A stretch of DNA of 22,631 bases from a virus: positions 1 through 22,631 of the IMG/VR virus record IMGVR_UViG_3300035670_001317; one strand, 5' to 3'. Shown piece by piece: positions 5,664 to 22,089 of this stretch. Position numbers and translations under genes: made by a program. Position 1 is the stretch's first letter, and each line of letters starts with the position of its first letter. The notes under the pieces were generated by a model. It was not told the DNA's origin and searched no databases. It was given only the letters and a program-made list of their open reading frames with translations.

Positions 5664-5686
5664 ATGCGGTCACAGACCTATTTCTA
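5650..5686 (-). repeat. Copy 1 of a duplicated stem-loop element
   Basis: Begins with the TAG stop of the radical SAM gene and reads TAGAAATAGGTCTGTGACC, then TCCGTAGGCTGTGC a few bases later. GGTC-TGT-GACC forms a short hairpin. A second copy lies at 10263-10297 with GGCC-CGT-GGCC, so the stem is kept although the bases change. About 28 of 35 aligned positions agree, allowing two small gaps (counted by eye). Role unknown: RNA processing, mRNA stability or a relic of rearrangement. Confidence 0.5.
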
Positions 5687-6895
5687 GTCTAAGGCAAAAA
5701 CTAATTCTTTGAAGGGTTGGCGGCGAAATACCAGCATGGGCAGGCCCTCTTCATTGTCCACAATCAGTTTTCCCCCATAGCTGGCATAGGCAAAACACCA
5801 CCATTTCGTTAGATTAGTGCGGGCGTTGGGTTCAGCCCAAAACATTTTTAGGATGCTTTCAAAACTCTGATACCGGGATTGCATTAGGGCCCTTGTCGTC
5901 CTCATGTCCTTGACCGAGACCCGGACATAATCCCCAATTCGGTTCGTCCCACCCGGCAATCTCGGGGCCATGTAATCGGCATAGTCTCGGAAGGAAACCA
6001 GGGCATAATCCCCTAGCCCCTGTTCGTAGCAGTGGTTAATGAATCCCTGATTAGTGGGGAACAGTTTGGGATAGCATTCCTCAAAAGGTTCCCAGAAGCG
6101 GGAATGGTGGCCCTGTCCGATGGTGTGGACTTCCAGCCCCCGGTCTAAGGCCTTGGCCCTGAAATCCTCTAACTGCCGGATTTTATAGTCCGGGTGCTTG
6201 CGTTTGAGGGCATCATAGACCGTTAGCAGTCCGATAGCCTCTTGCCCTTTCTGGGGGATGCGAGAAACCTGATCCTTGTTGAGGTGGAGCAGTTCACACC
6301 AGATACCCCATGCCCCACGATCCGCTAGTTCCTGCAATAACAATTCCTCTTCTCCCCGTTCAAACCAATCTGGCTCGTAGGGGTTCACGCCAACAATGAC
6401 ATGGTGGCCCTTGTCTCGCAGGGTGGTGATTAGTTCCAGTCTGGACTGAATAGAAGGGGCCCCCGGCTCGATGCCTTTGCGTTTCTCCTCGTCCCACATA
6501 GCAATGGAGAGGTACCACACCGCTGGGGGGGAGCTTTCTAACACTTCATCTATGCCCCGGCCGCCTTTGGTCTGGTAGGACACGGGGATATTACAGCCCT
6601 GGAGCATTTCTAGCACGGGTAACACCTGCCGCCAATTGCTAGCGGCAAAGGGATCAACCCGGTTAGACGCAAGAACGGGATAGCCCTCTTGCAATAGTCT
6701 CGCTAGGTAGGTATCCCGCTCTTGATAGCTAGCCAAGAGGTTGATGCTGGCTTTGATGTCAGCCCGCCGGTTGGGTTGGTTTAGGTTTGCAAAGCAATAA
6801 TGACAGGAATGCGAACAATAGTTAAAACTGACTTCTGTTGGTACTGGTGAAATTAGGAAATCCCCCCAGTATGGCGTGAAGGTATCTCCTGCCAT
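5684..6895 (-). CDS. Radical SAM enzyme, SPL-like, substrate unknown
   Basis: 403 residues. Near the N-terminus, SFNYCSHSCHYCFANLN holds Cys27, Cys31 and Cys34 in the CX3CX2C order that binds the 4Fe-4S cluster of radical SAM enzymes. PVLASNRVDPFAASNW (about 74-89) and VSYQTKGGRG (about 104-113) fit the barrel strands seen in spore photoproduct lyase-like and phage Gp37/Gp68 (DUF5131)-like members. VIVGVNPYEPDWF and ELLHLNKD continue the barrel; the last ~180 residues are not recognised. Its ATG shares one base with the stop of the ParB-domain gene (TAATG), so the two are translationally coupled. It lies directly ahead of the capsid gene. Possible targets are DNA bases, tRNA or a virion protein; the sequence does not decide. 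Confidence 0.75.
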   Translation of the reverse strand: MAGDTFTPYWGDFLISPVPTEVSFNYCSHSCHYCFANLNQPNRRADIKASINLLASYQERDTYLARLLQEGYPVLASNRVDPFAASNWRQVLPVLEMLQGCNIPVSYQTKGGRGIDEVLESSPPAVWYLSIAMWDEEKRKGIEPGAPSIQSRLELITTLRDKGHHVIVGVNPYEPDWFERGEEELLLQELADRGAWGIWCELLHLNKDQVSRIPQKGQEAIGLLTVYDALKRKHPDYKIRQLEDFRAKALDRGLEVHTIGQGHHSRFWEPFEECYPKLFPTNQGFINHCYEQGLGDYALVSFRDYADYMAPRLPGGTNRIGDYVRVSVKDMRTTRALMQSRYQSFESILKMFWAEPNARTNLTKWWCFAYASYGGKLIVDNEEGLPMLVFRRQPFKELVFALD

Positions 6896-13115: not shown

Positions 13116-14411
13116 TTACGTCGTTTGGTATGACCTCACTTTTGATTCAATAAAATCAACTACTTTTTGGTGGGGCATACTCGGAATAAAGCATTCTGTG
13201 TCGCCAGAAATGCTAAGCAAAGAAAACAGAAAGCTATCGTCAAACCTGTATTCTCTAAATTCCTTTAACACCGACTGCTCTATCTGGTGCGCATAACGCC
13301 CTATGTCTAACACCCATGTATATTTGGAGGTAATGAAAGCATGATCGCTACCGAACCTTTTTTTGATTGTTTTATTGGTTATGCCAATCTTCCAAAATGA
13401 AGCAAATGGCTTTTCAAACTTAAGGAAGTAAAGTAGCCCAGGCTTTGTTGGATCAAATCCATATTGAGCACACGATGGACACCCCTGCCCCATTAAATGG
13501 CTATTCGGTGCCTGCTCAAAAGCTCCGTGGGTTGGACAAATAATTTTTATTTTTGTTCTGTCGTTGATGTATGTACATTCTGAGTAGTCGTACTTTTTGG
13601 CATGGATTTTATTAACCCTCTCTATAAACTCTTCCGTGGTCGGAGATTTTATCCCAGCACATCCGGTACACCCATGTCCCCTCAAATGAGCAGTAGCCTT
13701 TTGCTCAAAGACTCCGTGAGTTGGGCAAATGATTTTTACTTTTGATAGTGCGCGGATATATACACACTTGGAATAATTGTACTTTTCACCGTGAACCTGC
13801 TTGGCTTTTTGGACAAATTCTTTTGTGTTTAATCGCTTTTTACCGCTACAAGCCGCACACCCATGCCCACTCAAGTGACTGCTTGGTACTTGCTCAAAAA
13901 CTCCATGGATTGGACAAATGATTTTTACTTTTGTGGCGCTATTAACGTAGTGAGACACAGAATAATCATAGCTTTCGCCATGTACCTGCTTAGATTTTTT
14001 TACAAACTCTTTTGTGGTTAATTGCTTTTTGCCACCACACACAGAACACCCTTGTCCCATCAAATGAGAATTAGGCTTTTGCTCAAACATTCCGTGAGTT
14101 GGGCAAATAATTTTTACCTTTTTGTGAGCATCAACATATATGCACAGAGAATAATCATACTTATCTCCATGTAACCGTTTAGCTTTTTGGATAAACTCTT
14201 TTGTGTTTAATTGCTTGTTGCCACTACATACCGAACACGCTTGTCCCATCAAATGACAGTTTGGCCTTTGCTCAAACACGCCATGCTCTGGACAAATTAT
14301 TTTTACCTTTGTCTTGTTATTGACGTATTCACTAAGAGAATAATCGTACTTGTCACCGTGGACTAACTGGGCATCTTGAATAAACTGCGCCCTTGTTTTA
14401 AGCTTAGGCAT
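13116..14411 (-). CDS. GIY-YIG-like nuclease with five zinc-finger repeats
   Basis: 431 residues. Five tandem units of 63 residues fill 1-315, each with F---A---HG-KYDYS, then KVKIICP-HG-FEQ, H-L-G-GC--C. Metal ligands recur as C-x2-H and C-x2-C (first unit Cys40, His43, Cys59, Cys62; next Cys103, His106, Cys122, Cys125). These resemble DUF723 DNA-binding zinc domains. Residues 325-400 look like a GIY-YIG nuclease: GLLYFLKF, then SFWKIGITN, Arg352 in KKRF and Glu379 in QIEQSVLKEF as candidate catalytic residues. Such proteins are usually free-standing homing endonucleases between conserved phage genes. Position between TerL and portal and low GC (about 40% in a line counted by eye) fit a mobile gene. 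Confidence 0.8.
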   Translation of the reverse strand: MPKLKTRAQFIQDAQLVHGDKYDYSLSEYVNNKTKVKIICPEHGVFEQRPNCHLMGQACSVCSGNKQLNTKEFIQKAKRLHGDKYDYSLCIYVDAHKKVKIICPTHGMFEQKPNSHLMGQGCSVCGGKKQLTTKEFVKKSKQVHGESYDYSVSHYVNSATKVKIICPIHGVFEQVPSSHLSGHGCAACSGKKRLNTKEFVQKAKQVHGEKYNYSKCVYIRALSKVKIICPTHGVFEQKATAHLRGHGCTGCAGIKSPTTEEFIERVNKIHAKKYDYSECTYINDRTKIKIICPTHGAFEQAPNSHLMGQGCPSCAQYGFDPTKPGLLYFLKFEKPFASFWKIGITNKTIKKRFGSDHAFITSKYTWVLDIGRYAHQIEQSVLKEFREYRFDDSFLFSLLSISGDTECFIPSMPHQKVVDFIESKVRSYQTT

Positions 14412-20290: not shown

Positions 20291-20673
20291 AGTCCACCTC
20301 CAACAGAGGCGATACCAGCGGCTACTGCGGCTTGCTGGGCCAGGGCCTTTTCCCGGTTTTCTCGCCAATATTTCACGGTGTCTAACCATTCCTGGCGACA
20401 GGCTTGGTGGAGGTCTTCACAGTCCCCCTCCTCAAGGAGGTTCAGGGCCTCTTTGTGGGGCGGGGTATAGCATCCCTTGCGGATACAGGCCACCATCGGA
20501 TGGGTGGCTAGGTGGTACCCAGAACACATCTTGTTCATGTTGTGGGGAGTGACCGTCCCGGTGTCCTCACAACAGAAACAGTCCCATCTGGGGAAAAATA
20601 TGCCCTTATCCGCTTCCGAGGGGTTGCTAAGGGGTTTTATCGTAATTTGTCTGAAAACTTGTTTTAGGGGCAT
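20287..20673 (-). CDS. Cysteine-rich zinc-binding protein, unknown
   Basis: 128 residues. An early cluster DCFCCEDTGTV with Cys32, Cys34 and Cys35, then Cys50, Cys63 and Cys68, suggests a zinc-binding fold. The second half is helical and ends in an Ala/Gly stretch. ATG shares one base with the loader gene stop (TAATG). In SPP1-like gene order a helicase would follow the loader; this gene is too short to be one. It may help replication, but that is inference. Confidence 0.6.
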   Translation of the reverse strand: MPLKQVFRQITIKPLSNPSEADKGIFFPRWDCFCCEDTGTVTPHNMNKMCSGYHLATHPMVACIRKGCYTPPHKEALNLLEEGDCEDLHQACRQEWLDTVKYWRENREKALAQQAAVAAGIASVGGGL

Positions 20674-21131
20674 TATCGTGCGGCTAATAAGGGTTGACCA
20701 TTGGGGGAGGGTTGTTCAGTGTGCAGAATACTGAACGACTCAAGGAAAGCTTTCCGCAACCGAGGAAGCTCGTAATTGGTATCAGCGGTCTCTACGGCAA
20801 TGCGGCCACCGATGGCCACCAGGGCCTTTTGACCCGCTTCGGAGATGGTGGGACGTTGCCCCCGGCTGGCGGCTTCCACAATGGCATCCCATTCCTTCTG
20901 GGCCAGTTGTTTTGGGTCGCCTTTGGCATAGGCGATCAGTTCCTTGGCAGAGGGGAAGTGAGTGTTATCAGTCAGGGCCTTATTGGCGGCAAGGACAAAC
21001 TCTTCAGTCGTCAGGTGTTTTGACAAGTGTTCATAGAACAGTTCAAACACGGAATCATTGGGGTTGCGGTTAAATAGGCTCTTGAGGTTGGCCCATTGGG
21101 CGACAAACACGTTTAGGTCAATCTTTGCCAT
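20673..21131 (-). CDS. Putative helicase loader, G39P-like
   Basis: 152 residues. The N-terminal 80 residues (FVAQWANLKSLF, then VFELFYEHLSKHLTTEEFVL, AANKALTDNTHFPSAKELIA) match the helical domain found in SPP1 G39P-type loaders and similar phage proteins: a W---L--F start, L-YEHL----F--A, then P-A-EL. The rest (QLAQKEWDAIVEAASRGQRP; ALVAIGGRIAVETADTNYEL) is a helical C-terminus. G39P loads the replicative helicase. The initiator-like gene directly before it, overlapping by 14 bases, mirrors SPP1 genes 38-39. No phage helicase is in this window, so a host DnaB might be used. Family call by pattern only. Confidence 0.6.
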   Translation of the reverse strand: MAKIDLNVFVAQWANLKSLFNRNPNDSVFELFYEHLSKHLTTEEFVLAANKALTDNTHFPSAKELIAYAKGDPKQLAQKEWDAIVEAASRGQRPTISEAGQKALVAIGGRIAVETADTNYELPRLRKAFLESFSILHTEQPSPNGQPLLAAR

Positions 21132-22089
21132 ACTTTTTCTCCAGAATTTTCAGAAGGCGCTCTGCCTCGGTAATGGTGTCTCGATTGGCTTGGGTATTCA
21201 GTTCAGGGGGAAGCTGAGTACCCGTAATGCTCCTTTCAACCCAACGCTCATGGAGTTGAAGGATTTTGCCGTTGCTGGCGAAATTGTCAAAGGAAAGGTC
21301 TTTGCCTCGATACCAATCGTCAGCATTGGCGTAGCGGAGGGCATTGGCCAAGGCGACCAGAGCGTTATCGACACCTCCGCAGTCTCGGATTAACTGCTCA
21401 AACTTTTTCCGGCGGGCTGGGCTAACTGTGGTCAGAGACGCAAACGAGGCCGGCTTGTGTTGGTTGTAGCACTCACGAAACGCATCAAACCTGTCATTTT
21501 TCGCGCGCGCTCTCTCTTGCTCTGTAGAAATCTCTGTAGAAATCTTAGAAGAAGTCTTAGTAGTAATCTTATTATGTTTGCAGATTTCTACTTTAGGAGC
21601 GCAGATTTCGACTTCAGGAAAGCAGTTTTCGGCTTCAGGAATGCAGTTTTCTGCACTCAGATCGCTGTTTTCTGCACTCCGGTTGTACGAATTCTGCAAC
21701 CAGTCGTTGACCACATCGGGGTTAAACAGAAAGTGCCTTGTGGTGTCCAGCTTCATCCGAGGGCTAACCATGGTCACAAAGCCAAGGGATACCAGGGTGG
21801 TGATTGCCTTGTTGATTGAGTGGCGCTTGAGTCCCGTTCTACGGCTGATGTCCTCGGTTGTGTGCCACTGGACAAGGGTTTCTATTTGTCCACCCTCTTT
21901 CCCGTGTTTTTTAGCCGTCTCGTTGTAACGGTGGACTTGCCCAAGAGACTCAAGTTTGATGTTGTGCCAATACTCGAAATAGCTAAGCATGATTGCACTT
22001 GAGATACACCCATCACAGGCTGTTAACTGCCATTGCCGATAAACTACCAGCGACTCGCTTGAGGGATGATCAATACAGGATGTCTTCAT
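21118..22089 (-). CDS. Replication initiator-like protein with internal repeats
   Basis: 323 residues. Residues 1-130 hold a winged-helix domain: IMLSYFEYWHNIKLESLGQV, VQWHTTEDISRRTGLKRHSI, NKAITTLVSLGFVTMVS. A linker (138-172) repeats a seven-residue unit five times: SAENSDL, SAENCIP, EAENCFP, EVEICAP, KVEICKH, then Lys/Thr/Ser repeats (TTKTSSKISTEISTE). The C-terminus (FRECYNQHKPASFASLTTVS; LANALRYANADDWYRGKDLS; FDNFASNGKILQLHERW) resembles the replisome-organiser C-terminal domain of phage DnaD-like initiators. The DNA encoding the linker carries 12-bp and 21-bp direct repeats, a likely origin. It would bind that origin and hand over to the downstream loader. A plain transcriptional regulator is the alternative. 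Confidence 0.7.
   Translation of the reverse strand: MKTSCIDHPSSESLVVYRQWQLTACDGCISSAIMLSYFEYWHNIKLESLGQVHRYNETAKKHGKEGGQIETLVQWHTTEDISRRTGLKRHSINKAITTLVSLGFVTMVSPRMKLDTTRHFLFNPDVVNDWLQNSYNRSAENSDLSAENCIPEAENCFPEVEICAPKVEICKHNKITTKTSSKISTEISTEQERARAKNDRFDAFRECYNQHKPASFASLTTVSPARRKKFEQLIRDCGGVDNALVALANALRYANADDWYRGKDLSFDNFASNGKILQLHERWVERSITGTQLPPELNTQANRDTITEAERLLKILEKKYGKD
21521..21684. other. Candidate replication origin: 12-bp and 21-bp direct repeats inside the initiator gene
   Basis: Four 12-bp units lie at 21521-21568: tctgtagaaatc twice exactly, then two variants (ttagaagaagtc, ttagtagtaatc). After AT-rich ttattatg, five 21-bp units lie at 21580, 21601, 21622, 21643 and 21664, each opening GCAG (GCTG in the last) and followed by TTTTC or ATTTC. 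Spacing is exactly 21 throughout. Lambda ori lies as iterons plus an AT-rich stretch inside gene O, so the arrangement fits an origin. The same repeats encode the protein's heptads, so a purely protein-level repeat remains possible. Confidence 0.5.

Follow-up and report, generated by a model that had tools for sequence, protein, structure and literature searches.

Replication origins that lie inside the gene for their own initiator are already known from phages. In bacteriophage lambda (gene O), as in the Stx phages P27 and 933W, iterons and an AT-rich tract are found in the middle of the initiator gene; these origins contain four to six iterons, the units of which are inverted repeats with an A-tract at their centre. 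The AT-rich tract of lambda is needed for unwinding (PMC7466680). In SPP1, oriL lies within gene 38, and in Staphylococcus phage 80alpha an origin has been proposed inside gp20 and annotated as a putative rep_origin; both are replisome-organizer genes (PMC5499656). The origin of Lactococcus phage Tuc2009 is annotated in rep2009, a DnaD-like gene with short linker repeats. RK2-type iteron plasmid origins combine repeated initiator sites with an adjacent repeated opening sequence of about 13 nucleotides (PMC10797057).

Here we describe a locus in a viral contig of 22,631 bp, the whole of which is referred to as the window. It shares with the phages above an intragenic position, with the lambda group the iterons, their type of unit and the AT-rich tract, with Tuc2009 the short linker repeats, and with RK2-type origins the pairing of two kinds of repeat. 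In contrast to RK2-type origins, it lies within a gene, and its initiator is a winged-helix phage protein without a Rep family match. What is new is a shared 12-bp motif and its natural capture by plasmids, not the layout.

The initiator gene and its neighbours

The source contig belongs to a tailed phage, with genes for a terminase, a major capsid protein and a dCTP deaminase. The terminase is about 43% identical to those of Edwardsiella eiAU, cyanophage KBS-S-2A and MED4-184. Faint relatives of the initiator are found in Aphanizomenon and Nostoc elements, and for this reason the host could be a cyanobacterium, although this is unproven. Elsewhere in the window, a minus-strand gene at 13116-14411 encodes a 431-aa protein with several 63-aa repeats of a Cys-containing module (189-bp repeats at the DNA level, 74% matches) and lies in an AT-rich island beside the terminase gene. 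Another, at 5684-6895 (minus strand) in the head gene cluster, encodes a 403-aa protein with CSHSCHYC near its N-terminus, which by eye only has a likeness to radical-SAM enzymes.

The initiator gene (P0001, 323 aa; 21118..22089, minus strand) encodes an N-terminal winged helix, a disordered linker and a helical C-terminal part. In profile searches the protein matches PHROG 345, 'replication initiation O-like', over aa 73-320 (E 7.9e-9) and PHROG 678 (E 2.1e-5); its resemblance to lambda O is confined to this remote O-like profile match. The winged-helix DNA-binding part (aa 68-135; 21685..21888, minus strand) rests on sub-cut-off Pfam matches of the HTH_36, DUF4423 and MarR types and on the AF2 model, where the wHTH spans approximately aa 78-122 with pLDDT mostly 70-81, falling to 58 at aa 111-120. 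The linker at aa 136-190 has a pLDDT of about 22-30 and is predicted to be disordered. No Foldseek match of the model reached E<=0.001; the best matches were mostly winged-helix proteins, including the plasmid initiators 5kbj and 4pt7.

Which protein would load the helicase? The downstream gene (P0002, 152 aa; 20673..21131, minus strand) overlaps the initiator gene by 14 bp, and its position suggests a helicase loader of unproven family. The neighbour gene in L005 is 96% identical to it, and it has no BLAST similarity to the downstream genes of L013 or Yong-L1-251. The original prediction of a G39P-like loader did not hold up, as neither G39P nor any other loader was matched in Pfam, PHROGs or PDB sequences; the G39P family was absent from Pfam matches at E<=1 and from PDB sequence matches at E<=10, and this identity was dropped.

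Two adjoining types of repeat in the linker

The linker of this winged-helix, O-like gene contains the two sets of repeats that had been noted there, five units of 21 bp and four of 12 bp with a gap between them. The iteron array (21577..21681, minus strand; TRF and periodicity test) reads, on the gene strand, CGGAGTGCAGAAAACAGCGAT, CTGAGTGCAGAAAACTGCATT, CCTGAAGCCGAAAACTGCTTT, CCTGAAGTCGAAATCTGCGCT and CCTAAAGTAGAAATCTGCAAA. The register is kept throughout, with unequal likeness among the units, and the centre of the second is the inverted repeat TGCAG-AAAA-CTGCA; dyad enrichment is not significant for the window array as a whole. Lambda iterons, by comparison, are 18 bp long at a spacing of 20-24 bp. 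A 6-bp gap, CATAAT (21571..21576), separates the iterons from four 12-mers of the form RAG-AYT-WCT-WCW (21523..21570, minus strand), the putative unwinding element. Their gene-strand units are AAGATTACTACT, AAGACTTCTTCT, AAGATTTCTACA and GAGATTTCTACA; in the rotation CTCTGTAGAAAT two 12-bp units are identical (TRF), and the opposite strand, read towards the iterons, is 5'-...TAGAAGAAGTCTTAGTAGTAATC-3'.

Both periods far exceed what shuffled sequence yields (period 21: 62 of 81 matches, shuffle mean 20.9 and maximum 36; period 12: 32 of 39, mean 10.5 and maximum 20). They also exceed the matches expected when synonymous codons are re-drawn, 50.7 +/- 2.8 for period 21 and 23.3 +/- 2.5 for period 12 (P <= 4e-4 in each case). 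Recent tandem duplication would beat this synonymous null as well, so the argument is carried by comparative data. At the locus itself the direct evidence for selection is thin, because there is a single close relative, L002, with a 90% identical protein. Between the two, 93 bp (21514-21606) are unchanged while 73 codons, of 324, have changed outside them; none of the 18 codons 172-189 has changed, compared with 73 of 306 elsewhere (P 0.009). In the part of the iterons that precedes these 93 bp, 10 of 27 codons (138-164) differ, and the 21-bp register is kept. More distant homologues, L007 (40% identical, N-terminal part only) and L008 (32%), have otherwise divergent linkers that finish with the same words, AAGACTACTTCTAAGACTACTTCTAAGACTTCTACAGAA of L007 being one instance.

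Among the features of a lambda-type intragenic origin are an O-like initiator, tandem repeats inside its gene and an adjacent tract that melts easily. The window has these three, although binding of the iterons by the initiator has not been shown: by nearest-neighbour energy, no 50-bp stretch of the entire 22.6 kb is less stable than 21525..21574. In 18 of 31 other initiators, too, the 50 bp of lowest stability within the gene fall in the motif region. In lambda, the best match to the 12-mer on either strand of the 1.8-kb O-P region is GACACTATTACA, located where the known AT-rich tract begins and 8 bp past iteron 4; unlike the window, lambda has only this one degenerate unit and none in tandem. 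Helix instability, position and the lambda match thus favour the earlier suggestion that the 12-mers are the melting region, with unwinding itself inferred. GC skew is uninformative about the origin, since the contig ends about 1 kb beyond the repeats.

The plus strand of the 12-mer block also resembles the DnaA-trio (3'-GAT-5') of the basal unwinding system (BUS; PMC8287927), in that a trinucleotide-phased TAG/TAA run (TAG AAG AAG and TAG TAG TAA) leads 5' to 3' into the putative binding sites. In the consensus 12-mer no more than two middle-A trios follow one another, below the three NAN trios of the DnaA-trio system, and no DnaA box (TTWTNCACA, <=1 mismatch) occurs within 140 bp, the nearest being at 21365. 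Membership of the DnaA-box/BUS system was rejected, as there is no DnaA box near the 12-mers.

The 12-bp motif in other initiator genes

Is the 12-bp unit peculiar to this phage? It recurs elsewhere as a DNA motif, GAGAYTACWACA, which has the form RAGAYTWCWWCW in the window. The window units, RAGAYTWCTWCW, are a K/S variant of this set and not the consensus (scored against the motif, one unit reaches 14.7, the highest value in the window, and two reach 7.6), and they show its defining features: repetition in tandem, fixed third codon bases and a place directly 3' of the iterons, which here are 6 bp away. Scans covered 2.9 million viral contigs with every synonymous codon allowed. The window-derived pattern, AAGAYTWCTWCTAAGAYTWCTWC, matched four contigs among the 2.9 million, namely L002, L007 and two unrelated ones; these two encode initiators of PHROG 9773 (E 3e-19) and PHROG 186 (E 2e-6), and both have iterons directly in front of the pattern.

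The peptides K[IT]TTK[IT]TT and E[IT]TTE[IT]TTE were scanned with all codons allowed to avoid codon bias; the resulting counts are samples and represent lower bounds among the matches listed. The second scan gave at least 50 clusters at 60% identity, and PHROG calls on every cluster representative among the matches listed identified 34 initiators, 15 other proteins and one unresolved fragment. Within the 34 initiator clusters, again among the matches listed, the motif uses GAG over GAA by 98:4, has T as the third base of the second codon of each unit in 68 of 68 cases and has ACA as the fourth codon in 68 of 68. The remainder of the same genes differs sharply (GAG:GAA 312:435, Fisher 6e-29; ACT/ACA/ACC/ACG 122/181/149/130, Fisher 5e-36), and the same peptides in the non-initiator proteins listed have mixed codons. 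The exact consensus is present in 30 of the 34 initiator clusters and in none of the 15 others among the matches listed. A CGCG block that follows the 12-mers (mean 1.0 vs 0.47 per 48 bp) was considered as a further conserved element and is not claimed, as it occurs in only 14 of 34.

Synonymous sites show the same constraint. In the two best-sampled clusters, synonymous diversity in motif, iterons and remainder is 0.000, 0.077 and 0.282 (33 genes) and 0.000, 0.185 and 0.503 (7 genes); in a small third cluster (3 genes) it is 0.07 in the motif and 0.41 elsewhere. The repeat DNA is therefore kept at synonymous sites, as expected of an origin. The prediction would have failed had homologues kept the heptad protein and scrambled the DNA; the opposite was found, with initiators scrambling the protein and keeping the DNA repeats and the 12-mer.

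In all 43 initiators examined among the matches listed, direct repeats in the 165 bp ahead of the motif are stronger than those in any other segment of the gene. The commonest iteron periods in this sample are 23 bp (21 genes), 22 bp (8) and 21 bp (6), and 33 of the 43 have a period that is not a multiple of three, which argues that these are not protein repeats. The heptads of the window are accordingly one instance, at 21 bp, of a rule that spaces the DNA units about two helix turns apart. Iterons precede 12-mers in both O-like and DnaD-like initiators, commonly at a distance of 7-17 bp. Dyads are enriched in the iterons overall (167 vs 40 expected), reaching significance in only 17 of 35 arrays.

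The exact 12-mer is missing from Tuc2009, from 80alpha and from phrog_345 matches in Pseudomonadota genomes. A phrog_345 survey of 150 genomes returned many weak MarR-type matches; the likely initiators among them often have linker repeats and do not have this 12-mer. In 80alpha (L304, 3675-3900) the iterons are followed by ACT-AAT-AAT repeats (peptide TNN) and not by the motif; this run makes a third form of the element that follows the iterons. In Tuc2009 (L305, 4097-4879) the downstream repeat is a different word, approximately GGTAAGGATAGTATA (peptide GKDSI), and may represent an opening element of another class. In one initiator (L185:2-925, minus strand), the winged helix is separated from the EITTEITTE linker by an inserted HNH endonuclease domain. 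Cyanobacterial plasmids also contain the motif: in plasmid2 of Nostoc sp. HK-01 (L308, 1841-3253), a hypothetical gene with repeats and ACAGAGATTACATCAGAGATTACTTCAGAGACTACT lies directly upstream of dnaB.

Among complete E. coli genomes, 2,001 of 5,426 contain the motif, so that convenient laboratory prophages exist. No description of the 12-mer was found in the literature searched, which did not cover Weigel and Seitz (2006), and prior notice is not excluded; the matches to the motif string were, by their titles, studies of H-NS in K. pneumoniae.

Plasmid copies, rival readings and inferred origin opening

A bare 42-nt motif search of annotated phage records returned mostly initiator genes. 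The same 42 nt also occur in non-coding DNA of pBSG3 and five near-identical plasmids, where they form part of an iteron and 12-mer cassette (L306, NC_014104, ~723-893). The hosts of the cassette are small plasmids of Bacillus velezensis and B. amyloliquefaciens. Related plasmids share the site but have it empty; alignment shows about 170 bp of additional DNA there in the cassette carriers. Over 181 columns this insert has 76% identity to the stretch of iterons and 12-mers in the initiator gene of Bacillus phage PM1, and single-base indels break the PM1 reading frame. In the version on pEA19 (L311), iterons and exactly one 12-mer have been lost. It is possible, as an inference from these alignments, that the cassette is a phage-dependent (piggyback) origin, and the capture of a homologous segment gives indirect support to the inferred binding of the iterons by the protein and replication of the segment in trans.

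Could the repeats be conserved for some purpose other than replication? The alternative that survives best, improbable though it is, makes the 12-mer a boundary at which DNA-binding and C-terminal initiator modules are swapped. The 12-mer does fall precisely at the junction of divergent N-terminal and C-terminal modules, and the neighbouring parts are mosaic, but a recombination joint would leave unexplained the fixed iteron neighbourhood, the helix instability and the joint capture by plasmids. It is more doubtful still that the repeats are merely an operator, through which the initiator represses its own gene without any role in origin function. Iterons of Rep plasmids are often autoregulatory, and dyads are found in many of the arrays. 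However, the mid-gene position, the adjoining unstable 12-mers and the precedents of lambda and 80alpha/SPP1 do not fit an operator, nor does the capture of the segment by plasmids without the gene.

Is it instead the protein that is conserved? Retention of the heptads and the T/S-rich linker for flexibility, with the DNA repeats arising only incidentally through tandem duplication, is already largely refuted and very hard to sustain. The window repeats are in frame, and the 12-mer reading frame is the same in all initiator genes, so some coexisting protein constraint is possible; against this stand iteron periods that are mostly indivisible by three, frozen synonymous sites, mixed codons for the same peptides elsewhere, and a plasmid copy that is frame-shifted and non-coding. 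The least credible alternative, hairpins or a codon run controlling how the initiator mRNA is translated or degraded, can draw on a stable RNA fold of 21515-21690 (z -3.8), but such hairpins are the expected shadow of the DNA dyads and the plasmid copy has no surrounding initiator gene; since the iteron dyads also form mRNA hairpins, an RNA role is not formally excluded.

The comparative evidence thus supports the prediction of an iteron-type origin in the initiator gene, and we regard it as very probable that the site is such an origin, with a sequence-specific unwinding element. Observation extends to the iterons, to constraint at the DNA level on the two kinds of repeat, to the constant order of these in O-like and DnaD-like initiators, to the helix instability and to the gene-free plasmid copy; binding, opening, the strand used and its reader are inferred from sequence. 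In the proposed mechanism, the winged-helix domain would bind the five 21-bp iterons, as lambda O binds its own; a spacing of about two helix turns would place them on one face of the DNA. The initiator-iteron complex would then open the adjacent 12-mer block, where selection is presumed to act on the DNA and not on the encoded K/E-[IT]-[TS]-[TS] peptide. The initiator, or else a protein of the host or phage, might hold one exposed strand, allowing a helicase loader to place DnaB.

A wider proposal is plausible, but the evidence does not yet lead us to favour it: many tailed phages of Bacillota, Pseudomonadota and Cyanobacteriota may share a tandem 12-bp origin word, TGTWGTARTCTY, which is read single-stranded by a common host or phage factor at opening, and plasmids may capture this word together with phage iterons for replication by an infecting phage. 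The sequence rule of iterons followed by tandem GAGAYTACWACA gives a simple guide to phage origins where genomes are unannotated, and selection on the motif explains the odd ETTTETTT or KTTTKTTT linkers of these initiators. The findings suggest that origin opening in many O-like systems needs a specific word, and not only AT richness.
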